Part shown: in pieces, positions 26,095 through 37,236 of the stretch
Numbering within the stretch: position 1 is the stretch's first letter
Layout of the letters: each line of letters opens with the position of its first letter
DNA from: Candidatus Bathyarchaeota archaeon
GTDB taxonomy: Archaea; Thermoproteota; Bathyarchaeia; Bathyarchaeales; Bathycorpusculaceae
Length of the DNA: 64,000 nt
Reading direction: 5' to 3'
Assembly: GCA_026014585.1 (NCBI GenBank)
Contig: JAOZIA010000013.1
Coordinates: forward strand, 1 to 64,000
Notes under the pieces: generated by a model
Seen by the model: the letters and a program-made list of their open reading frames with translations, nothing else
Database searches by the model: none
Told to the model about the DNA's origin: nothing
Translations under genes and position numbers: made by a program

Positions 26095-26891
26095 ACGGAA
26101 AAACCATCGCAATCACCCGTCCAGCAGGGCAAATCCAAGAAGCCCAAGAGCAAATCACCGCGTTAGGCGGCAAACCCTACTTTATCCCAGCCATAGAAAT
26201 CAAAGGTCTAACCGACTTTTCCCAAATAAAACAATTCATCACCGAACTCAAAGCGGGCAGCGTTGATTGGGTTGTTTTCATGAGCACCAACGGCATCAAA
26301 CATCTCCTCGAAGCCGCAAAAACCCTCAAACAAACCACGGATTTGATGACTGGGTTGGCAACATCGTTTGTGGTTGCAGTTGGTCCCAAAACGGCAGAGG
26401 CTTGCCTTGATTTTGGTGTGCATGTGGATATGGTTCCTGCTAAATACAGTAGTGAAGGCTTAATCGAAACCATAAAAGACATGGACTTGCGAGGCAAAAA
26501 AATCCGAATCCCAAGAACCACTAGTGCAACCCCCATCCTTAAAGACAAACTCAAAGAAATGGGGGCAGATGTGCAGGAAATTTATGTTTACGAGTCAGGC
26601 TTACCCGTGGACGAGGAGCTTAAGGCGCGTTTTTATGAAGATTTATCCACAGGGCGAATTGATGCGGTAGTGTTTGGTAGCGGCTTGAGCGTAAAAAACA
26701 TTTTTAAAATGCTCACCGAAAAAGCAACGCCCCAACAGGTCAAAGCCCTTCTGAATGGTAAAGTTACGACGGTGGCTATTGGTCCAACTACTGCTGAAGC
26801 TCTAAAGGAATTGGGCGTGAAGGTTGATGTGATGCCGCAGAATTACCTGTTTGAGCGGGCGCTATCTGATTTAGTCAGGTTCTGGGGCTAA
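26070..26891 (+). CDS. hemD: uroporphyrinogen-III synthase
   Basis: 273 residues. The family is poorly conserved, but AITRPAGQIQEAQEQI, DWVVFMSTNGIKHL, IRIPRTTSATPILKDKL, YVYESGLP, VVFGSGLSVKNIF and VTTVAIGPTTAEALKELG match both HemD lobes. ATG 26070 has gggaggaa upstream, inside cobA. Last gene of the rightward run. Confidence 0.92.
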   Translation: MVQKTPNLNGKTIAITRPAGQIQEAQEQITALGGKPYFIPAIEIKGLTDFSQIKQFITELKAGSVDWVVFMSTNGIKHLLEAAKTLKQTTDLMTGLATSFVVAVGPKTAEACLDFGVHVDMVPAKYSSEGLIETIKDMDLRGKKIRIPRTTSATPILKDKLKEMGADVQEIYVYESGLPVDEELKARFYEDLSTGRIDAVVFGSGLSVKNIFKMLTEKATPQQVKALLNGKVTTVAIGPTTAEALKELGVKVDVMPQNYLFERALSDLVRFWG

Positions 26892-27375: not shown

Positions 27376-27924
27376 ATGAGTGAGGCAGTTACACCAAAAG
27401 TCGGTGAGCAGCCGATTAAAGCTTCCGAGATTGACCCCAGCTTCAAATACGAACTGGCGAAAATCCATGGAAGCGAAAAAATTCTGAAATGTTTTCAGTG
27501 TGGAACATGCACATCTGATTGCCCCGTAGCACGTTACAGCGACACATACCGCCCAAGAACCCTAATTTACATGGCAAAACTGGGCTTAAAAGAACGCGTA
27601 CTGTCCAGCGACACCCTGTGGCTTTGTGCCGCATGCTTCACCTGCACCGACCGCTGCCCCCAAGACGTAGAAGTTGCCAGTGTAATACGGGTTCTTCGCA
27701 ACATGGCAGCAGAAAGAGGCTGCATCCCAACCGTTTTCAAAGAACAAGCCGCAGCTGTAATTGAGTCAGGTTATGCATACAAAATTCCTGAGTTGCGAAT
27801 CAAAAAACGGGAACAATTGGGGCTACCGCCGCTGCCAAAAGGTAACCCTGAGGCGGTACGTAAGGTTCTCAAAGGCGTAAAATTTATGGAAAAACAGGCA
27901 GGAGCAAAAGCAAATGAGCAGTAA
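27376..27924 (+). CDS. hdrC: heterodisulfide reductase subunit C-like iron-sulfur protein
   Basis: 182 residues. Two [4Fe-4S] motifs: Cys39, 42, 45, 49 (CFQCGTCTSDCPV) and Cys84, 87, 90, 94 (CAACFTCTDRCPQDVE). This matches HdrC, which passes electrons between HdrA and the HdrB active site. In non-methanogens HdrBC-like pairs often work on disulfides other than CoM-S-S-CoB. Overlaps hdrB by 11 nt. Confidence 0.9.
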   Translation: MSEAVTPKVGEQPIKASEIDPSFKYELAKIHGSEKILKCFQCGTCTSDCPVARYSDTYRPRTLIYMAKLGLKERVLSSDTLWLCAACFTCTDRCPQDVEVASVIRVLRNMAAERGCIPTVFKEQAAAVIESGYAYKIPELRIKKREQLGLPPLPKGNPEAVRKVLKGVKFMEKQAGAKANEQ

Positions 27925-28804
27925 ATACCTGATTTTTTTGGGCTGCGCAGTACCCTACCGTGTCAGTTCCTACGAAATTTCCTCACGCAAAGTCTTGGCA
28001 AAGCTGGGTATTGAATTGGTGGAGATGCCAGAGTTTAACTGCTGCGGCTTACCGCTTGATGCAGTCAGTCACGAAACCATGCTGATATTAGCCGCTAAGA
28101 ATCTTGCGTTGGCAGAACAACAGGGACTAGACATTTTGACGCTTTGTCCAGGTTGTGCGGGAACCTTAAAGAAAGTTAACAAAATCCTCAAAGAGGACAC
28201 AGCGCTCAAGGACCAAATTAATAGTCACCTCAAAGAAGCGGGACTTGAGTTTAAAGGCACTATCCAAACAAAACATCTCCTACAAGTGCTAAAAGAGGAT
28301 GTGGGTTACGATAAAATCCGAGATGCAGTTACAAGACCGCTCACTGACCTAAAAGTTGCCGAACACAACGGCTGCCACATACTGCGACCTAAAGAGTACA
28401 TTGGGTTTGATGACCCCGAAGACCCCCAAACACTCAAAGAACTAGTCGAAGCCACAGGAGCCACATGCCTTGACTACATTGACGAAACAGAATGCTGCGG
28501 TGCCCCAAGTGTTGGCGTCAGCGACAAAATCGCGTTGCAACTGGCAAGAAACAAGCTTAACCACATAAAAATGGTGGATGCACAGGCGTTAATCACGATT
28601 TGCCCATTCTGCCACATTATGTATGATACAAACGAGTTGCGTATAGAAAAAATGTTTAATGAGGTGTATGGTATTCCCATACTCCACTATCCTCAATTGC
28701 TAGGCTTAGCCTTGGGCATGTCACCTGATGAGCTTGCTTTTGGGGATCTCAGGGTTAAAGCGTCAAAAATAATGGAGCAAATAACGCAAGGAGCAACAAA
28801 CTAA
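27914..28804 (+). CDS. hdrB: heterodisulfide reductase subunit B-like protein (two CCG domains)
   Basis: 296 residues. Two CCG repeats: FNCCGLPLD with LCPGCAGTL in the first half and TECCGAPSVG with ICPFCHIMYD in the second. These cysteines bind the two noncubane [4Fe-4S] clusters that split the disulfide in methanogen HdrB. ATG follows aggagc. Its stop overlaps the next gene's start by 1 nt, so it is coupled to the hydrogenase. Confidence 0.9.
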   Translation: MSSKYLIFLGCAVPYRVSSYEISSRKVLAKLGIELVEMPEFNCCGLPLDAVSHETMLILAAKNLALAEQQGLDILTLCPGCAGTLKKVNKILKEDTALKDQINSHLKEAGLEFKGTIQTKHLLQVLKEDVGYDKIRDAVTRPLTDLKVAEHNGCHILRPKEYIGFDDPEDPQTLKELVEATGATCLDYIDETECCGAPSVGVSDKIALQLARNKLNHIKMVDAQALITICPFCHIMYDTNELRIEKMFNEVYGIPILHYPQLLGLALGMSPDELAFGDLRVKASKIMEQITQGATN

Positions 28805-29781
28805 TGACTGAAAAATTGAAAATAGCCTTTTACTGGGCTGCAAGCTGCGGCGGATGCGAAATAGCCGTACTTGACATAAACGAGAAAATCTTGGACGTAG
28901 TCAAAATCGCTGACATAGTATTTTGGCCAGTAGCTATCGATGTCAAGTACAAGGATGTTGAAGCATTACCCGATAAACACATTGACATAACCTTCTTTAA
29001 CGGTTCAATCCGCAACAGCGAACAAGAACACATGGCAAAAGTCCTCAGATCAAAATCCAAAACTCTGATTGCTTTTGGTTCATGCGCCCACGAAGGAAGC
29101 ATTCCAGGGCTAGCTAACCTGAGCGACAAAAACGGAGTATTTGAGCAAGTTTACATCAAAGACAAATCAAACATTAACTCACAAGCAACCATGCCAAAAA
29201 CAGAAACCCAAGTAAAAGAAGGCACACTCAAAATCCCCGAGTTCTACGACACGGTCAAAACTTTGGCGCAAACTGTTGATGTGGACTATTATCTGCCAGG
29301 TTGTCCGCCCCCAGTTCAACTAATCGTTGCAGCAATAGACGCAATTGCAAGCGGAAAACTGCCACCGAAAGGCAGCGTACTTGCCCCACCCAAAGCAGTC
29401 TGCGACGAATGCCCACGCAAAAGGGAAAACAAGAAAATTGACAAAATCTACCGCGTCTACGAAAAAGAACCTGACCCCGAAAGATGTCTGCTTGAGCAGG
29501 GAATCCTCTGTATGGGTCCAGCAACTCGAAGTGGCTGCGGTGCACAATGCCTCAAAGTTGATATGCCATGCACTGGTTGCGGTGGTGCGGCTCCAAATGT
29601 TCCAGAGCAAGGCGCGGCTATGATTAGTGCTCTTGCATCTATTCTTGGTTATGATGGAAAGGAAACGTATACGGAAGAGGAAATTGAGGAACTAATGGCG
29701 CAGATAAAGGACCCTGTGGGAACCTTTTACATGTACAGTCTTCCTGCCTCAATTCTGAAACGTAAGGTGATTAAAAAATGA
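28804..29781 (+). CDS. mvhG: [NiFe]-hydrogenase small subunit, MvhG-like
   Basis: 325 residues. Proximal cluster ligands ASCGGCEIAVLD, FGSCAHEGSIPG and YLPGCPPPVQLI; a cysteine-rich C-terminal part (CDECPRKRENK, CLLEQGILCMGPATRSGCGA, PCTGCGGAAP) as in group 3 F420-non-reducing hydrogenases. It relays electrons from the NiFe site. No twin-arginine signal, so cytoplasmic. ATGA overlap with mvhA. Confidence 0.92.
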   Translation: MTEKLKIAFYWAASCGGCEIAVLDINEKILDVVKIADIVFWPVAIDVKYKDVEALPDKHIDITFFNGSIRNSEQEHMAKVLRSKSKTLIAFGSCAHEGSIPGLANLSDKNGVFEQVYIKDKSNINSQATMPKTETQVKEGTLKIPEFYDTVKTLAQTVDVDYYLPGCPPPVQLIVAAIDAIASGKLPPKGSVLAPPKAVCDECPRKRENKKIDKIYRVYEKEPDPERCLLEQGILCMGPATRSGCGAQCLKVDMPCTGCGGAAPNVPEQGAAMISALASILGYDGKETYTEEEIEELMAQIKDPVGTFYMYSLPASILKRKVIKK

Positions 29782-31232
29782 AAGAAGTAGTAATTGACCC
29801 AATCACGCGCCTTGAAGGACACGGAAACGTATCCATATTCCTAAACGAGCAAGGCGAAGTAGAAAACGCTTACCTAAAAATCCCAGAACTCCGCGGTTTC
29901 GAAAAATTCTGCATCGGCAGAAGAGCAGAACTCATGCCACAATTAACCACCAGAATCTGCGGTGTCTGCCCAGTCGCACACCACATGGCAGCAGTAAAAG
30001 CATTAGACGCAGCATTTGACGTGGAACCCACATCTGCAGCTAAGAAACTACGTGAACTAATGTACACAGCCTACTTCATCTACGACCACACCCTTCACTT
30101 CTACTATCTGGGTGGTCCAGACTTTATCGTTGGACCAGACGCGCCAGCAGAAAAACGCAACATCCTCGGCGTCATCGAAAAAGCAGGCATGGACGTTGCC
30201 AAAGATGTCATTAAACACCGCGCGTATGGACAGAAAATCACTGAAATCATCGGCGGAAAAGCAACCCATCCCGTCTGTGCATTACCAGGCGGAATCTCAA
30301 AGGCACTAACTGAGGAAAACCGTGCAGAAATCGAAAAGATGGCAACTTCCTGTGTTGATTTTGCCAAGTTCTCGCTAAAACTGTTCCATGAAATCGTCTT
30401 AGGCAACATCGGCTACGTAGACATGATTAAGAGTCAGGCCTACACGATGCCCACTTATTATATGGGAACCGTGGATGAAAACAACAAAGTGAACTTCTAC
30501 GACGGAAAAGTCCGTGTGGTTGACCCATCAGGCAAAGAATGTCTAAAGTTCAACAGTCAAGATTATCTTGAGCACATCGGCGAGCACGTTGAAGAATGGA
30601 CATACAGCAAATTCCCATACCTTAAAGCAGTTGGCTGGAAAGGTGAAGTTGCAGGTGCAGACAGCGGAATTTATCGTGTTGGACCCTTGGGCAGGCTAAA
30701 TGCAGCAGAGGGTATGGCTACACCTTTGGCGCAGGCTGAGTATGAGGAAATGTACAAGACGCTTGGCGGCAAACCAGTCCACAGCACCTTAGCATTCCAC
30801 TGGGCAAGATTAGTGGAGCTTCTCTACGCGTCTGAACGAGCCGTAGAGCTTGTTAAAGACCCCGAAAGTACCAGCACAAATGTACGCAACAAACCCGGCG
30901 AACCAGGTCAAGGTGTCGGCATCGTTGAAGCGGCACGCGGTACACTGATTCACGATTACACACTAGACAAAGACGCAATGGTAAAAGATGTTAACATGAT
31001 TGTGGCGACAACCAACAATTATCCCGCAATCTGCATGAGCATACGCGACGCAGCTAAAGGCTTAATCCACGAAGGCAAAATTGACCAAGGCATCCTAAAC
31101 AAGGTTGAAATGGCATTCCGCGCCTATGACCCCTGCTTTGGATGCGCAACACACGCTGCAGTTGGACAAATGCCTCTTACTGTGGAAGTTTTTAACGCTC
31201 AAAAGCAACGTGTCAGCTCAGTAAGCAGATAA
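29778..31232 (+). CDS. mvhA: [NiFe]-hydrogenase large subunit, MvhA-like
   Basis: 484 residues. NiFe ligands are Cys61 and Cys64 (RICGVCPVAHH) and Cys453 and Cys456 (DPCFGCATH). About 25 residues follow His459, the tail normally removed by the maturation protease whose gene lies at 31899. With mvhG and hdrCB it forms a soluble H2-linked Hdr module. No mvhD or hdrA is adjacent. Confidence 0.94.
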   Translation: MKEVVIDPITRLEGHGNVSIFLNEQGEVENAYLKIPELRGFEKFCIGRRAELMPQLTTRICGVCPVAHHMAAVKALDAAFDVEPTSAAKKLRELMYTAYFIYDHTLHFYYLGGPDFIVGPDAPAEKRNILGVIEKAGMDVAKDVIKHRAYGQKITEIIGGKATHPVCALPGGISKALTEENRAEIEKMATSCVDFAKFSLKLFHEIVLGNIGYVDMIKSQAYTMPTYYMGTVDENNKVNFYDGKVRVVDPSGKECLKFNSQDYLEHIGEHVEEWTYSKFPYLKAVGWKGEVAGADSGIYRVGPLGRLNAAEGMATPLAQAEYEEMYKTLGGKPVHSTLAFHWARLVELLYASERAVELVKDPESTSTNVRNKPGEPGQGVGIVEAARGTLIHDYTLDKDAMVKDVNMIVATTNNYPAICMSIRDAAKGLIHEGKIDQGILNKVEMAFRAYDPCFGCATHAAVGQMPLTVEVFNAQKQRVSSVSR

Positions 31233-31236
31233 ATTA

Positions 31237-31269
31237 GCCCGTTTTTTAGGGCGCAATTTTATTTTTTTT
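31237..31269 (+). terminator. hairpin and T-run after the hydrogenase operon
   Basis: GCCC (31237-31240) pairs with GGGC (31249-31252); T-rich stretches fill the loop and the sequence after it (31257-31269). The stem is short, but position directly after mvhA fits termination. Confidence 0.45.
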
Positions 31270-31343
31270 CATTTATCTGATTTAATTTTTAATAAATTTT
31301 ATATCATTAATCAACCAATTTAGCTTTGATAAGAGGCATAGAA

Positions 31344-31859
31344 ATGAAAAGTCTTATCGTTTATTATTCTCGAACTGGTAATGCCAAGTTTGTCGCTGAA
31401 ACCATAGCAGCTGAAATTGGCGCGGATATAGAAGAAATTGTAGACCAGAAAAACCGAAGCGGACCAATGGGCTGGCTGAGCGGTGGTAAAGATGCACGCA
31501 AGGGCGCAGAAACCGAGATTACACCCATCAAGAAATCGCCTGCGGATTACGATTTGATTGTTGTTGGCACGCCTAATTGGGCAAGCCGCATAACCCCAGC
31601 AATCCTAACTTACCTTAAGAAGAACAGTTTAGCAGAGAAAAAAGTTGCCTCGTTCATTGTTCAAGATGGTGATAAACCCTTATCACCTGACCAAATCAAA
31701 GCATTAGTTCCAGACTCCATTTGGCTTGGAGACATTTCAATCACTAAAGCCTTAAAAAATAAGTCTGAGACAGAAAAGCAAATCATTGAATGGTGCAAAA
31801 CCATAATGGAAAAACCTGCAAGTGTAGATTCAGGTGATGCGTTCACTAAAGGGCTCTGA
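31344..31859 (+). CDS. flavodoxin
   Basis: 171 residues from ATG 31344, with aagaggc 6 nt upstream; a TTG at 31326 would add six residues. The FMN-phosphate loop is IVYYSRTGNAKFVAETIA; VVGTPNWASRITPAI forms the second loop. Its place between the hydrogenase and its protease suggests it is an electron carrier for the H2-linked system, for example replacing ferredoxin, but that is inference. Confidence 0.85.
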   Translation: MKSLIVYYSRTGNAKFVAETIAAEIGADIEEIVDQKNRSGPMGWLSGGKDARKGAETEITPIKKSPADYDLIVVGTPNWASRITPAILTYLKKNSLAEKKVASFIVQDGDKPLSPDQIKALVPDSIWLGDISITKALKNKSETEKQIIEWCKTIMEKPASVDSGDAFTKGL

Positions 31860-31898
31860 GAGGAAACTTTTTTCCAGCCAACACCATTAATTTTTGAC

Positions 31899-32393
31899 AT
31901 GCAAAACAAAATTGAGCAGGAACTAAAAAACTGGTTTAAGGGCGCAGATAAGGTTGTCATTGCAGGCATAGGCAACCCAATCCGCAAAGATGATTATGTC
32001 GGCTTAAAAATTGTAGAAACCCTAAACAGCAAAGTCCAAAATAACGTGCGGTTGCTGGAGTGCGAAATAGTCCCAGAAAGCTACCTCCAAGACATCCAAG
32101 ATTTCCAACCCACACATGTACTTTTGATTGACGCCGCATTCCTCAACCTCAAGGCAGGCGACAGCAAACTGGTTGAACCCAAGGAAATCACATGCACTGC
32201 CGCATACACCTCACATCTATTGCCACTGCGAATATTTTGTGAGCTAATCCAGCAAACAACAAAAACAAAACTTGCACTTTTGCTGATTCAGCCGGGACAC
32301 GTAGATTTTGGTGAAGGCTTAACAGGAAAAGTTGAAACTACTGCTCATAGAGTCTCAACATTACTGCTGGAGTTGTTTGGAAACAAAAAATAG
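31899..32393 (+). CDS. hydrogenase maturation protease
   Basis: 164 residues of the HycI/HyaD family: VVIAGIGNPIRKDDYVGLKI, LLECEIVPESY with the nickel-sensing Glu, LLIDAAFL and the His in YTSHLLPLRIF. It trims the C-terminus of the NiFe large subunit after nickel insertion. mvhA, 670 nt upstream, has the expected tail. Confidence 0.9.
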   Translation: MQNKIEQELKNWFKGADKVVIAGIGNPIRKDDYVGLKIVETLNSKVQNNVRLLECEIVPESYLQDIQDFQPTHVLLIDAAFLNLKAGDSKLVEPKEITCTAAYTSHLLPLRIFCELIQQTTKTKLALLLIQPGHVDFGEGLTGKVETTAHRVSTLLLELFGNKK

Positions 32394-32416: not shown

Positions 32417-32920
32417 TTATTGTTCTTTTGCTTCTTTTTCTTGGAAGAGTTTTTTGATTGCGCTGATTCTTGCCTTCTGCGCCAACACATCGCTTGTGGT
32501 GACAGTTAAGGCTTCTTCAGGACACCACTTAACACACTGAGGACCATCAGCTTTGTCTTTGCATAGGTCACAGACGTAGACAACTTTGGTTTCTGGGTGC
32601 AACATGATTGCGCCGTAATCGCAGGCTTCAATGCACCAGCCACATCCATTGCATTTGTCAGGGTCAAGCACGATGTTTCCTGTATCTTCTGATTGGGAGA
32701 GCGCATCTCTTGGGCAAGCTGCAACACATGCTGGGTCTTCGCATAATCTGCAGGCTACTGCCATGTTTGCTATTTGGTTTACTCGGACTACGCGTATGCG
32801 GGATTTTAGGGGGTTGAATGCTTTTTCCTTGTTAAAGGAGCACGCATATTCACAGATTTGGCAGCCGACACATTTTTCGGGGTCAACAGAAACGAATTTT
32901 CTTTGGTGAAGTTTTGGCAT
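32417..32920 (-). CDS. four-cluster ferredoxin paired with AOR (copy 1)
   Basis: 167 residues with 16 cysteines in four groups: CVGCQICEYACS, CRLCEDPACVAACP, CNGCGWCIEAC and CDLCK...CVKWCP. This can hold four [4Fe-4S] clusters, like HycB/AorB-type subunits. The ATG has aaggagg upstream and begins 2 nt after the AOR gene, so it is its dedicated electron acceptor. Nearly identical in layout to the copy at 34890. Confidence 0.88.
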   Translation of the reverse strand: MPKLHQRKFVSVDPEKCVGCQICEYACSFNKEKAFNPLKSRIRVVRVNQIANMAVACRLCEDPACVAACPRDALSQSEDTGNIVLDPDKCNGCGWCIEACDYGAIMLHPETKVVYVCDLCKDKADGPQCVKWCPEEALTVTTSDVLAQKARISAIKKLFQEKEAKEQ

Positions 32921-32922
32921 TT

Positions 32923-34779
32923 TTATTCCTCCTTTCCTTCAACTATAGCAGAGTACTCTTCTAAACCCAGTTTTTTGAGGGTATCTTTTGTTGGGTAACC
33001 TTCAAAGCTCCAACCACGTGCCACATAATAATCATCCAACAACAGGTCAAGTTCATCTTGGGTTACTTTAGCGCCTTTCACTGGACCATCATCTGGGACT
33101 GGTTCATTCATGACTTTCCAGGGTAGCGTATCATCTTTACGGCTTAAGCCTTCACGTGTATTAATGAGTCTTGCCAACGTGATTATTCGTTCACCTGCAA
33201 GGATTAAGTCTTCAGCAGTTACAGATTCACCAGTAATTAGGTTGTAGAGTTTTGCCATATCCGCAGTTTCATTGTAGAGTGTTCCTCTTGAGTTCTTGCA
33301 GATAATTAAGGAGTCAATAAGGGCATAGTTATCTTCTAAGTCTTTGATTATTTTGCCTCTACCCTTCTCAGCTTTTAAGCGGTCAACTTTACCTTTCAGG
33401 TCCACCGCGTAAGCGTTGCTTCTGTTATGGTCTGCGCCACGGAACGAAACTGCGTAGCCCAAAGCGGCAGTTTTAAGGCAACGCATATCATAACCAGTAA
33501 CTTCCAAACCCTTAATCTGCATAGCAAGCTTTTCAGAGCCTTTACCGATTTTCTCGGAAGCAACTTTGACGCCGTCACCTAGAATTTCTCCGATACCCTC
33601 TCGTTTGCCAATTTTCTCAATCAGCTGCACCATAGCATCAGCGTTTCCAAAGTGAGCATCAATTCCGCCGAGGTCTTCATGTGAAAGGATGCCTCTTTCA
33701 TGGCAGTCCATCACAAAAGCAACAGTTACACCTGTGCTTTGTGCATCTAAACCGTAATTGTTGCAGAGTTCAGCGGCTTTTATTATTGCATCAAGTTTAT
33801 CAACGCCACAGTTTGGACCAAAAGCCCAAAGATTATCGTATTCGATTCTTGCCATTGTACCTTTGTATGGACCATCACGGATGACTGCCTCATGCTCACA
33901 ACGCATTGCACAAGAGTTACACGCGATAATTTTTGCGATGTAGCGGTCGTTGATGATTTCTGGAGATAGTTTATCGGCGTGTTCAAAAGTTGAAGTTGAA
34001 TAGTTACGGGTTGGCATACAGTAAGATGCATTTTGGATTGGGAGGTTCTCCACGGTGCCAAGGGTTCGGTATTTTTGAGTTGAAGGACCTTTCATTCGTT
34101 CATGGAATTCTTTTACCATGTCAATAAATTCTTCAGGCTCGGCAACTGTAATGTCTCGTGTTCCTCTGACCGCGATGGCTTTTAGGTTCTTGCTGCCCAT
34201 AACTGCGCCAAGACCAGTTCTGCCAGCAGCACGTGTTTTCTCGTTAAGAATGCAAGCTATTTTGGAGAGTTTCTCGCCAGCTGAACCAATTGAGGCAACG
34301 CGAACATAGTAGTCGCCGATTTCATCTTTAATGGCTTCTTCTGTTTCAGCAGGTGTTTTGCCCCAGAGTTTTTCAGCATCCATTAGCTGGGTTGCATCAT
34401 CGTCAATCCATAAATAGACTGGTTTTTCGGCTTTTCCAGTCAAGATTAATGCGTCGTATCCTGCACGTTTGATTTCTGCGCCAAATGTTCCGTGGCTTAC
34501 CGCTTCGCCTAATCCGTTTGTTGCCGGCGATTTTGAAATAAAAGCGTGCCCATTGCCACCTGTTGGGAACATTGTTCCTGATACGGGCCCAACTGCTAGA
34601 ACCAAGGGATTTTCGGGGTCAAATGGTTTTATTCCTGCTTTGGTGTTGTTCAGCCAAAGCCTCATGCCTAAGCCTATGCCGCCAACGTATTTTTTGGCGG
34701 TTTCTTTATCTAATTTTTCAATTTGAGTTTTGCCTGTTGTTAAATCTATGCGTAGAATTCTCCCTGCGTAACCGAGCAA
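32923..34779 (-). CDS. aor: aldehyde ferredoxin oxidoreductase (copy 1)
   Basis: 618 residues, family length. Tungstopterin-binding N-domain (YVGGIGLGMRLWL, GPVSGTMFPTGGNGHAF, SHGTFGAEIKRAGYDALI), AGRTGLGAVMGSKNLKAIAV, and the cluster ligands Cys287, 290 and 294 (ACNSCAMRCEHE) with a later cysteine in SLIICKNSRG. Oxidises aldehydes to acids, or reduces acids with low-potential ferredoxin. TTG start with gggagg 8 nt upstream. Substrate unknown; the ACD at 1437 could couple to it. Confidence 0.93.
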   Translation of the reverse strand: MLGYAGRILRIDLTTGKTQIEKLDKETAKKYVGGIGLGMRLWLNNTKAGIKPFDPENPLVLAVGPVSGTMFPTGGNGHAFISKSPATNGLGEAVSHGTFGAEIKRAGYDALILTGKAEKPVYLWIDDDATQLMDAEKLWGKTPAETEEAIKDEIGDYYVRVASIGSAGEKLSKIACILNEKTRAAGRTGLGAVMGSKNLKAIAVRGTRDITVAEPEEFIDMVKEFHERMKGPSTQKYRTLGTVENLPIQNASYCMPTRNYSTSTFEHADKLSPEIINDRYIAKIIACNSCAMRCEHEAVIRDGPYKGTMARIEYDNLWAFGPNCGVDKLDAIIKAAELCNNYGLDAQSTGVTVAFVMDCHERGILSHEDLGGIDAHFGNADAMVQLIEKIGKREGIGEILGDGVKVASEKIGKGSEKLAMQIKGLEVTGYDMRCLKTAALGYAVSFRGADHNRSNAYAVDLKGKVDRLKAEKGRGKIIKDLEDNYALIDSLIICKNSRGTLYNETADMAKLYNLITGESVTAEDLILAGERIITLARLINTREGLSRKDDTLPWKVMNEPVPDDGPVKGAKVTQDELDLLLDDYYVARGWSFEGYPTKDTLKKLGLEEYSAIVEGKEE

Positions 34780-34822
34780 TACTCTATTCCTCCCTTAACT
34801 TGAAGATATGTAGTCAAGCGTA

Positions 34823-34834
34823 CAGTATATTAAG
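34823..34834 (-). promoter_or_regulatory. TATA box for AOR copy 1
   Basis: Minus-strand cttaatatactg, placed about 45-55 nt upstream of the TTG start, leaving a short leader that contains the gggagg ribosome site. AOR copy 2 has a similar box. Confidence 0.4.
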
Positions 34835-34889
34835 TTAATGGGGTATTGTAGCCAAAATTGACGATTTGGCTCTTTTTTTTATTTACCGC

Positions 34890-35378
34890 TTAGCCTGTTT
34901 GGAAGAGTTTTTTGATTGCGCTGATTCTTGCCTTCTGCGCCAACACATCAATTGTGGTGACAGTTAAGGCTTCTTCAGGACACCACTTAACACACTGAGG
35001 ACCATCAGGTCGGTACTTGCACAAGTCGCAAACGTAGACTGTTTTTGTTTCAGGATGCATCATCATTGCGCCATAACTGCACGCTTCAATACACCAACCG
35101 CAACCATTACATTTGTCCTTGTCAATGACAATGTTGCCTGTATCAGCTGATTGTGTTAAGGCATCTCTTGGGCAGGCTGCAACACATGCTGGGTCTTGGC
35201 ATAATCTGCAGGTAACTGCGATGTTGTGTACTTGGTCTTGCCTGACGACTCGGATGCGGGATTTTACGGCGTTGAAAACTTTTTCTTTAGCAAATGAGCA
35301 AGCATATTCACAGACTTGGCAACCAACACATTTGTTTGGGTCAGCTGAGATGAATCTTCGTTCGTGTAGTTTAACCAT
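34890..35378 (-). CDS. four-cluster ferredoxin paired with AOR (copy 2)
   Basis: 162 residues from ATG 35378 (gaggggt upstream; the ATG at 35396 lies inside the AOR gene). Same 16-cysteine pattern as copy 1: CVGCQVCEYACS, CRLCQDPACVAACP, CNGCGWCIEAC, CDLCKYRPDGPQCVKWCP. The two ferredoxins are about 80 percent alike by eye, much closer to each other than would be expected for unrelated recruitment, so the pair arose by local duplication. Confidence 0.87.
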   Translation of the reverse strand: MVKLHERRFISADPNKCVGCQVCEYACSFAKEKVFNAVKSRIRVVRQDQVHNIAVTCRLCQDPACVAACPRDALTQSADTGNIVIDKDKCNGCGWCIEACSYGAMMMHPETKTVYVCDLCKYRPDGPQCVKWCPEEALTVTTIDVLAQKARISAIKKLFQTG

Positions 35379-35382
35379 TTTT

Positions 35383-37236
35383 TTACCCCTCAACATCCTT
35401 GATTAGGTTTGAGAACTTTTCTAAGTCTAATTCCTTAAGTTTAGCTTCGGTTGGGAAACCCTTTTTGGTCCAACCACGTGCCGTATAATAATCATCCAGC
35501 ATCAGGTTAAGTTCCTCTTGGGTGACAATTGCGCCTTGTGCTGGCCCCTCATCTTGAACTGGCTGGTTCATGACTTTCCAAGGTAGAGTATCATCTTTAC
35601 GGCTTAAGCCTTCACGAGTGTTTATGAGTTTAGCAAGTGTGTGTATTCGTTCACCCATAATAGCTAATTCTTCAGCTGTAACTTCAAAGCCTGTAACAGC
35701 GCTGTATATTTTTGTCAAATCAACAAGATCGCCATACAAGGTGCCTTTAGCGTTTTTACAGATAATAAAGGAATCAAGCAAATCATAACTATCCTCAAGA
35801 TCCTTTACCAGTTTACCGCGTCCTTCCTCAGCTTTTAAGCGGTCAACGGTATTACTCAAATCCAACGTGTAAGCGCTACTTCTGCTATGGTCAGCACCTC
35901 GGAAAGAAACCGCAGAGCCCAAAGCGGCAGTCTTTAAACTGCGCAGGTCATAACCGGTAACTTCTAAGCCTTTAATGTGCATTGCAAGCAAAAGCGAGTT
36001 TTTGCCGATTTTCTCAGCGGCAACCTTTACGCCATCAGCCAAGAGATCACCAATGCCTTCACGTTTACCTATTTTTTCAATAAGGTTCACCATGGCATTT
36101 CCGGTGCCAAAGTGTGCGTCAACGCCGCCAAGCTGTTCAGAGGTTAATATGCCCTTTTCGTAGCATTCCATAACAAAACTAATACTCACACCTGTGCTCT
36201 GTGCATCCAAGCCGTAATGGTTGCAGCGTTCAGCAGCTTTGATTATAAAGTTTGGTTCAGACACGCCACAGTTTGGACCCAAAGCCCAAAGATTGTCATA
36301 TTCAAGGCGCGCCATAGTTCCTGTATAGAAGCCCTCTTTAAGGACAACTTCGTGTTCACAGCGCATTGCACAGGAGTTGCATGCGATGATTTTTGTGACA
36401 AAGTGCTCGTTTAATACTTCGGGATTGATTTTTTGTGCATCAAAATGAGCTGCATTATAGTTTTGGGTTGGCATGCAGCAGTGTTCATTGTTTATGGCAA
36501 GGTTTTCAATTGAGCCGAGAGTGCGGTATTTCTGTGCAGCTGGACCTTTCATTCTTTCGTGAAATTCTTCCACCATATCCATGAATTCGACTGGTTTAGC
36601 AACAGCTACATCACATGTGCCGCGAACGGCAATGGCTTTTAGGTTTTTGCTGCCCATAACTGCGCCAAGACCAGTCCTGCCTGCAACACGTGTTTTATCG
36701 TTGACTATGCAAGCTATTTTGGAGAGTTTCTCGCCTGCCAGACCGATTGAGGAGACACGAATGTAGTGGTCACCAATTTTGTCTTTTAGTTCGTCTTCAG
36801 TTTGGGCTGGTGATTTACCCCAAAGGTCGCTGGCGTCTCGAAGTTGAACATTGTTATCATCTATCCAAAGATAGACTGGTTTTTCTGATTTACCTACTAT
36901 GATTACTGCATCATAGCCGGCTCTTTTTAGTTCAGTGCCAAATGTTCCATGACTTACAGCTTCTCCGACACCGCCTGTCGCTGGTGACTTTGAAATAAAA
37001 GCGTGCCCATTGCCACCTGTAGGAAACATTGTACCTGCTAAGGGTCCTAGTGAAAGGATAAGCGGGTTCTCGGGGTTAAAGGGGTCAACTCCTGCTTTGG
37101 AGTTGGAGAGCCAAAGATACATTCCTAAGCCGATACCGCCAACATATTTTTTGGCGACTTCTTGGGTTAATTTTTCTGTTCGTATTTTTCCTGTTGTTAA
37201 ATTAACGTTTAATAGGGTTCCCGCGTAGCCAAACAA
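35383..37236 (-). CDS. aor: aldehyde ferredoxin oxidoreductase (copy 2)
   Basis: 617 residues, collinear with copy 1. The same motifs are present: GPLAGTMFPTGGNGHAF, SHGTFGTELKRAGYDA, AGRTGLGAVMGSKNLKA, ACNSCAMRCEHEVVL and FIICKNAKGTLYG. Differences cluster in the middle (residues about 240-275, for example HCCMPTQNYNAAHF against SYCMPTRNYSTSTF), a region likely to line the substrate channel, so substrate ranges may differ. TTG start; ribosome site weaker than in copy 1. Confidence 0.93.
   Translation of the reverse strand: MFGYAGTLLNVNLTTGKIRTEKLTQEVAKKYVGGIGLGMYLWLSNSKAGVDPFNPENPLILSLGPLAGTMFPTGGNGHAFISKSPATGGVGEAVSHGTFGTELKRAGYDAVIIVGKSEKPVYLWIDDNNVQLRDASDLWGKSPAQTEDELKDKIGDHYIRVSSIGLAGEKLSKIACIVNDKTRVAGRTGLGAVMGSKNLKAIAVRGTCDVAVAKPVEFMDMVEEFHERMKGPAAQKYRTLGSIENLAINNEHCCMPTQNYNAAHFDAQKINPEVLNEHFVTKIIACNSCAMRCEHEVVLKEGFYTGTMARLEYDNLWALGPNCGVSEPNFIIKAAERCNHYGLDAQSTGVSISFVMECYEKGILTSEQLGGVDAHFGTGNAMVNLIEKIGKREGIGDLLADGVKVAAEKIGKNSLLLAMHIKGLEVTGYDLRSLKTAALGSAVSFRGADHSRSSAYTLDLSNTVDRLKAEEGRGKLVKDLEDSYDLLDSFIICKNAKGTLYGDLVDLTKIYSAVTGFEVTAEELAIMGERIHTLAKLINTREGLSRKDDTLPWKVMNQPVQDEGPAQGAIVTQEELNLMLDDYYTARGWTKKGFPTEAKLKELDLEKFSNLIKDVEG

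Follow-up and report, generated by a model that had tools for sequence, protein, structure and literature searches.

The window analyzed here is the stretch of 64,000 nucleotides at positions 1 to 64,000 of contig JAOZIA010000013.1 (assembly GCA_026014585.1) from a Candidatus Bathyarchaeota archaeon. It contains an operon in which the genes for HdrC and HdrB, subunits of a heterodisulfide reductase, run directly into those for MvhG and MvhA, the small and large subunits of a [NiFe]-hydrogenase, and are followed by a flavodoxin-like gene and a gene for a hydrogenase maturation protease:

27376-27924, + strand: hdrC, with two cysteine-rich [4Fe-4S] motifs; Pfam Fer4_8 above cut-off, best NCBIfam match CoB_CoM_SS_C.
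27914-28804, + strand: hdrB, with two CCG domains (Pfam CCG above cut-off); best NCBIfam match CoB_CoM_SS_B.
28804-29781, + strand: mvhG, [NiFe]-hydrogenase small subunit of the F420-non-reducing (Mvh/Vhu) type; Pfam Oxidored_q6, best NCBIfam match VhuG.
29778-31232, + strand: mvhA, [NiFe]-hydrogenase large subunit; Pfam NiFeSe_Hases, best NCBIfam match VhuA.
31344 (ATG) or 31326 (TTG) to 31859, + strand: flavodoxin-like gene; Flavodoxin_4, 33.9 bits (cut-off 24).
31899-32393, + strand: hycI, hydrogenase maturation protease; Pfam HycI and TIGR00072, both above cut-off.

The first four genes overlap by 11 (hdrC/hdrB), 1 (hdrB/mvhG), and 4 (mvhG/mvhA) nucleotides, which agrees with a preliminary description of the locus as an overlapping or abutting run with a flavodoxin gene downstream. 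Because the NCBIfam matches of the four proteins all score under their curated cut-offs, the naming draws on best match together with PDB relatives and gene order. The top PDB matches of HdrC are 8rvv_C and 8rvu_c, both HdrC (E 3.9e-32), HdrB matches five HdrB chains (E 2e-69 to 4.2e-64), and residues 5-318 of MvhG, nearly its whole length, align to the MvhG chain 5odc_E with the cluster cysteine motifs conserved. For these three proteins, the PDB relatives are the corresponding subunits of Mvh-Hdr or Hdr complexes. MvhA has as its top PDB match 7t2r_D, a [NiFe] large subunit, followed by 9sfi_g and 5odc_F; it contains the Ni-Fe ligand motifs RICGVC and DPCFGCATH and a C-terminal tail beyond the last histidine, for which HycI is the probable processing enzyme. 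The hycI gene is present 3' of mvhA in many related loci. The top nine public HdrB matches are all titled Candidatus Bathyarchaeota, and some lower ones are titled Crenarchaeota, Nitrososphaerota, or Jordarchaeum.

Related MvhA, MvhG, HdrB, HdrC, HdrA, and MvhD parts make up the MvhADG-HdrABC complex of methanogens (the 5odc series), which we take to be that of Methanothermococcus thermolithotrophicus. Of what this complex requires, the window encodes the Ni-Fe ligand motifs of MvhA, the cluster cysteines of MvhG, a two-CCG HdrB, and an HdrC with two [4Fe-4S] motifs; HdrA and MvhD with their cofactor ligands are encoded elsewhere in the source genome. No hdrA or mvhD adjoins the operon in the window, and the same is true of the 20 public loci without linker genes described below, but adjacency to hdrCB-mvhGA is not regarded as essential for membership in such a complex. 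Very probably the window encodes part of an ordinary MvhAG-HdrA(MvhD)-HdrBC complex of the bifurcating MvhADG-HdrABC type whose genes lie at two loci; most likely this is a rearranged form of a familiar enzyme complex and not a new one. It differs from the 5odc system in that HdrA and MvhD form one polypeptide encoded at another locus, and in that no methyl-coenzyme M reductase (MCR) alpha subunit was found in the genome.

The source genome (G000) is a metagenome-assembled genome (MAG) that spans 2,312,036 bases on 25 contigs, with 95.59% completeness and 1.81% contamination. It encodes one HdrA-MvhD fusion of 822 amino acids at C21:356781-359246 (L092:7782-10250), on a contig other than that of the operon, so that the earlier statement that HdrA and MvhD are missing holds for the locus and fails for the genome. 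In a genome-wide search, the MvhD family PF02662 (FlpD) gave a 145.9-bit match within an 826-codon frame on C21, and the HdrA2 model NF040770 matches the same frame over model positions 1-775 of 777 with 1078 bits, a six-frame score below the curated cut-off of 1100. A polyferredoxin (323 amino acids, named by eye) precedes the fusion and overlaps its start. No second full-length HdrA was found in the source genome; the HdrA2 model has 38 further matches there, all of them short, and two of these fall in a double-MvhD protein on C2. The only CCG matches in the genome (E ≤ 0.001) are the two domains of the window HdrB, so no alternative HdrB was found for HdrA-MvhD, and the assembly offers a single HdrA-MvhD and a single HdrCB as partners for each other. 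Beside MvhA, one further [NiFe] large-subunit match lies on C5.

The fusion keeps its cofactor residues. Residues 25-667 align to HdrA (5odc_A, E 4.9e-255) and residues 674-809 to MvhD (5odc_D, E 7e-36). E379 and K431 align with E356 and K409 of the 5odc-series HdrA, two residues that, according to the accessible text of PMC12054007, have been proposed to mark HdrA proteins that bifurcate. Both residues are conserved in all 30 fused proteins aligned, as are cysteines 682, 685, 711, 736, and 742 of the MvhD domain; among the other 29 cysteines of the source-genome fusion, 26 are invariant, the exceptions being 128 (29/30), 228 (16/30), and 425 (28/30). The 30 rows comprise the source-genome fusion and 29 of 30 retrieved HdrA-MvhD loci, and omit L219, a copy with TGA codons, as well as all HdrA matches that were not retrieved as loci.

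Further evidence comes from the layout of 80 public loci fetched around relatives of HdrB, which show the four-gene order to be conserved. Twenty of these (L012-L025, L027, L030, L031, L034, L048, and L082) have the order hdrC-hdrB-mvhG(-mvhA) with no MvhD match within about 2.3 kb or more upstream, and are termed linker-less. In 18 others, mvhD lies upstream of hdrC in the same run, about 0.4 kb away in L071 and nearer in the rest. Sixteen of these 18 also match one or both halves of the 1007-residue HdrA of L035; L036 and L071 retain mvhD with no HdrA of this kind adjoining. L080 is cut off upstream, L083 has a different gene order, and the remaining 40 loci have no MvhG directly downstream of HdrB or end there. 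Since mvhD sits just upstream in 18 loci, the hdrCB-mvhG(A) block is evidently used with HdrA/MvhD elsewhere. A close comparison is the bathyarchaeal run HdrA-mvhD-hdrC-hdrB-mvhG-mvhA-hycI, seen for example in L035 and L039, which shares the hdrCB-mvhGA-hycI order of the window (identities in L035 of 79% for HdrC, 81% for HdrB, 73% for MvhG, and 79% for MvhA) but has its linker genes upstream in the same run, where the window has none. In L035, both halves of HdrA are HdrA-like and mvhD is a separate gene; by the types given in the accessible text of PMC12054007, a two-part HdrA of this kind agrees with type II and the fused HdrA-MvhD with type Ia. The fused type encoded together with HdrCB is exemplified by L089, where a single run contains a polyferredoxin gene, a fused HdrA-MvhD (75%/68% identity), hdrC, and hdrB, the HdrC and HdrB being only 48% and 55% identical to the window proteins.

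The linker-less loci lie on one side of a single branch in the MvhG tree (36 rows; Shimodaira-Hasegawa-like approximate likelihood-ratio test, SH-aLRT, 98), and when this tree is rooted with L083, a single outgroup row on a long branch, the linker-less clade is nested among linker-adjacent rows (SH-aLRT 99). A concatenated four-protein tree of 34 rows, which drops L048 and rows missing any of the four proteins, supports the linker-less branch at 100/100. The MvhG tree needs one change of linker label and the HdrB tree two, with L048 standing apart on a long branch. Given their single nested clade in the MvhG tree, the linker-less loci are most simply explained by one loss of the linker genes from an operon that originally contained them. 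A gain of genes by the linker-less clade, or their transfer into it, was considered and set aside, as one loss is simpler; that loss does not account for the position of the L048 HdrB.

Co-occurrence was followed in two overlapping sets of genomes. The genus set comprises 32 genomes, the source genome included, with presence of HdrA-MvhD and MvhG called at a minimum of 80% identity. Fused HdrA-MvhD is found in 30 of them (28 near full length, with fragments in G025 and G028) and is missing from G005 and G024. MvhG is present in 16 (partial in G016), 11 others having only distant paralogues and five none. HdrB occurs in 28, and the four genomes where it was not found (G003, G012, G025, and G028) all have HdrA-MvhD. 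Every one of the 16 genomes with MvhG has both HdrA-MvhD and HdrB. The public set holds 39 genomes with 40 loci: the 20 linker-less loci, the 18 linker-adjacent loci (in 17 genomes), L080, and L083. HdrA matches (E ≤ 1e-60) occur in 38 of the 39. Near full-length HdrA-MvhD at 69% identity or above is found in 19 of the 20 linker-less genomes and is the sole HdrA match at E ≤ 1e-60 in 15; in G037 the full-length protein is a copy with TGA codons, and a second copy is in two pieces. Among the 19 other genomes, 17 have near full-length HdrA-MvhD at a minimum of 60%, and G060 and G062 have only fragments at that level. Ten of the 20 linker-less public genomes are genus assemblies (same contig, coordinates, and scores; G033, for example, is G019). 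With shared assemblies counted once, this MvhG occurs in 26 genomes of the two sets and the fusion in 25 of those, the region upstream of hdrC having been checked in all but five (G020-G023 and G026). The suggestion in the preliminary description that HdrA is recruited from another locus is therefore supported, and the first half of what it named as a refutation of its hypothesis, an hdrA-mvhD always present elsewhere, holds in all linker-less genomes examined but one, G046.

In the genus, such counts describe an association that is complete in one direction, with MvhAG as a variable module. They were not accepted as proof in themselves: HdrA-MvhD is almost universal in the genus, so co-occurrence is not a strong test, and of the 16 genus genomes that lack this MvhG, 14 still have the protein, as against all 16 of those with it. 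This lack of specificity is the first of several points that weigh against a two-locus complex; HdrA-MvhD must have other jobs than serving MvhAG. G005 (95% complete) and G024 (90%) encode an HdrB at 71% identity with no HdrA and no MvhG found, and HdrCB may function without HdrA there. G046, the MAG of the linker-less locus L027, has no HdrA match. In addition, fused (type Ia) HdrA has been reported to use F420H2 without a hydrogenase, according to PMC12054007 and the title of PMC5296606. Sequence change on the branch leading to the linker-less clade also bears on the question. This stem takes up a larger share of total tree length in HdrC (0.021) and MvhG (0.024) than in HdrB (0.015) and MvhA (0.008) in the same 34 rows without L048. 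Either a swapped linker or direct HdrC-MvhG contact could give this excess, and it does not decide between them. The MvhD part of the fusion shows no such excess (0.024 of tree length, compared with 0.034 for the HdrA part; 30 rows, with L221, of the unclassified L080, counted on the linker-adjacent side), which weighs against a linker swap because a fused MvhD newly adopting MvhG might show extra change.

Some of these points lend themselves to the proposal, made in the preliminary description, that MvhG passes electrons directly to HdrC in a non-bifurcating H2:disulfide reductase, perhaps with flavodoxin as partner, leaving the distant HdrA-MvhD for other reactions only. In its favor, the run sets mvhG directly against hdrCB and contains no linker gene, and the greater stem change in HdrC and MvhG, the missing excess in the MvhD part, and the presence of the block in G046 are also as it would have them. 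Against it, a linker is available in all 16 genus genomes with MvhG and in 19 of the 20 linker-less public genomes (10 shared), the aligned fusions keep the cofactor residues, and in 18 loci the same block is preceded by mvhD. By the criteria used, the linker-less and linker-adjacent classes are separated at just one position of MvhG (residue 198 of the window protein), which is little for a new interface and speaks against direct MvhG-HdrC contact. Of the other linker-less loci, 18 can be read beyond mvhA, and just two of these (L024 and L082) have flavodoxin between mvhA and hycI, most linker-less relatives having a short gap or other open reading frames there. Flavodoxin is an occasional passenger and not a conserved component. 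Direct transfer from MvhG to HdrC is thus highly improbable, and we give very little credence to the related view that loss of the linker genes was a real rewiring to a non-bifurcating enzyme, with the retained HdrA-MvhD serving other donors. The preliminary interpretation is in this way upheld in part, for HdrA from another locus, and not supported for direct HdrC-MvhG contact with flavodoxin.

A second possibility is that MvhAG and HdrCB are encoded together and act apart, with F420H2 or ferredoxin feeding HdrA-MvhD/HdrCB through an FrhB-like protein, and MvhAG passing electrons to another acceptor such as the polyferredoxin, the double-MvhD protein, or flavodoxin. The source genome has six FrhB_FdhB_C matches and a second MvhD-bearing protein with two FlpD matches in one frame on C2. 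All 16 genus genomes without this MvhG retain HdrB, HdrA-MvhD, or both, and HdrABC with FrhB has been proposed for Bathyarchaeia in the accessible text of PMC7886697 and PMC10989822. Set against this, mvhG adjoins hdrCB in all 38 classified loci (which were classed by this neighbor, the other 42 of the 80 being without it, cut, or L080/L083), mvhD is joined to the block in 18, and MvhG aligns over nearly its full length to the MvhG of the 5odc complex. We regard separate action as unlikely. Since HdrA-MvhD persists in genomes without MvhAG and six FrhB_FdhB_C matches are present, it probably also accepts electrons from other donors.

If MvhAG, HdrA-MvhD, and HdrBC assemble as a complex, MvhAG would form the H2-oxidizing and HdrBC the disulfide-reducing half of a soluble electron-bifurcating enzyme, and the 822-residue type Ia HdrA with its C-terminal MvhD would supply the middle piece in trans. 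Electrons from H2 would pass from the Ni-Fe site of MvhA, matured by HycI, along the MvhG clusters to the [2Fe-2S] center of the MvhD domain and on to the flavin adenine dinucleotide (FAD) of HdrA. There electron pairs would be split, one electron going to ferredoxin by way of the HdrA ferredoxin domains and perhaps the polyferredoxin, the other through HdrC to HdrB and a disulfide; the pathway could also run in reverse. What has been established is the gene content, the retention of cofactor residues, the co-occurrence, and a tree consistent with a single loss of the linker genes from the operon. Assembly, bifurcation, and direction we infer from the methanogen complex, and the disulfide is likewise putative. 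A role for CoM-S-S-CoB, the heterodisulfide of coenzymes M and B, was considered and judged improbable: MCR alpha was found in only one of eight genomes searched (G063, the genome of L061) and not in G000, a 95.6% complete MAG in which the search covered MCR alpha and CoM/CoB biosynthesis was not looked for. Since no MCR alpha was found, it is unlikely that the disulfide in this organism is CoM-S-S-CoB produced by MCR. For the related Bathy-6-A, the accessible text of PMC7886697 calls the identity of the heterodisulfide unclear.

Among known systems, HdrA2B2C2, presumably that of Methanosarcina acetivorans, resembles the present one in its HdrA fused to MvhD (type Ia, NF040770), and differs in that the protein described here falls short of the model's cut-off and that an Mvh-type hydrogenase is encoded alongside hdrCB. 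A circular Bathy-6 MAG, as given in the accessible text of PMC11697101, has MvhD/hdrA as one gene (2887) beside MvhB (2886) with HdrCB distant (2744-2745), as here, but its HoxHU/MvhAG (2706-2707) adjoins NuoGFE/HoxUFE (2708-2710) and not HdrCB. A split layout in Bathy-6 is thus already in print. A bathyarchaeal type III hdrA cluster with mvhADG is mentioned in the accessible part of PMC12054007, and that of PMC13188914 states that VhuD and HdrA genes are frequently fused in archaea. The literature searched, with partial coverage and supplements excluded, yielded no text that treats the linker-less hdrCB-mvhGA block in its own right.

Several further features of these genomes deserve mention. 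Upstream of the operon lies hemD, ending at 26891, and downstream, beside hycI, positions 32417-37236 of the window carry on the - strand two tandem pairs of ferredoxin-like and aldehyde:ferredoxin oxidoreductase (AOR) genes, with domains checked in the first pair; AOR matches at 50% or above occur in 19 of the 80 loci. The G+C content of the operon equals that of the surrounding DNA. In ten loci (L037, L046, L049, L050, L059, L060, L062, L064, L065, and L072), hycI lies within about 1.2 kb 3' of hdrB and neither mvhG nor mvhA intervenes, which looks as though a deletion had taken out the hydrogenase genes and spared the protease gene; the L060 match is partial only (39%). The double-MvhD protein on C2 (402 amino acids, L093:5790-9242, G000:C2) has its two FlpD matches in one frame with ferredoxin motifs between, and is a second MvhD-bearing electron-transfer unit of the source genome. 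Its neighbors look NfnA-like and GltD-like by eye, and weak matches resembling it occur in many genus relatives.

Two linker-less genomes contain an HdrA-MvhD fusion with two TGA codons: L227:5883-17366 (G039:C2) and L219 (G037:C23). The in-frame TGA codons coincide exactly with a cysteine position in HdrA and another in MvhD, and a cysteine copy adjoins. A selenocysteine (Sec) tRNA above the Rfam cut-off was found near the TGA-bearing fusion in two of 12 genomes searched, G039 and G037. In L227 only, a polyferredoxin gene lies upstream, and SepSecS-like and PSTK-SelB fusion-like genes (named by eye) lie downstream. Selenium in Bathyarchaeia was dismissed as a novelty: the accessible text of a 2026 review names other lineages, but that of PMC9499178 already attributes tRNA-Sec and a fused PSTK-SelB to Bathyarchaeia. 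No mention of a double-Sec HdrA-MvhD was found in the literature searched, which had partial coverage.

Clearly, the absence of a neighboring gene does not amount to the absence of a subunit. A single loss seems to have removed the bifurcating core from the operon, with another locus able to provide it, and the two-locus layout is a real, conserved, and ordinary arrangement of a known complex. It suggests a modular organization in Bathyarchaeia: a single HdrA-MvhD hub persists along with HdrCB, and the MvhAG hydrogenase is gained or lost. If the two-locus complex is correct, archaea with no detected MCR alpha would use H2 to reduce ferredoxin and a disulfide.

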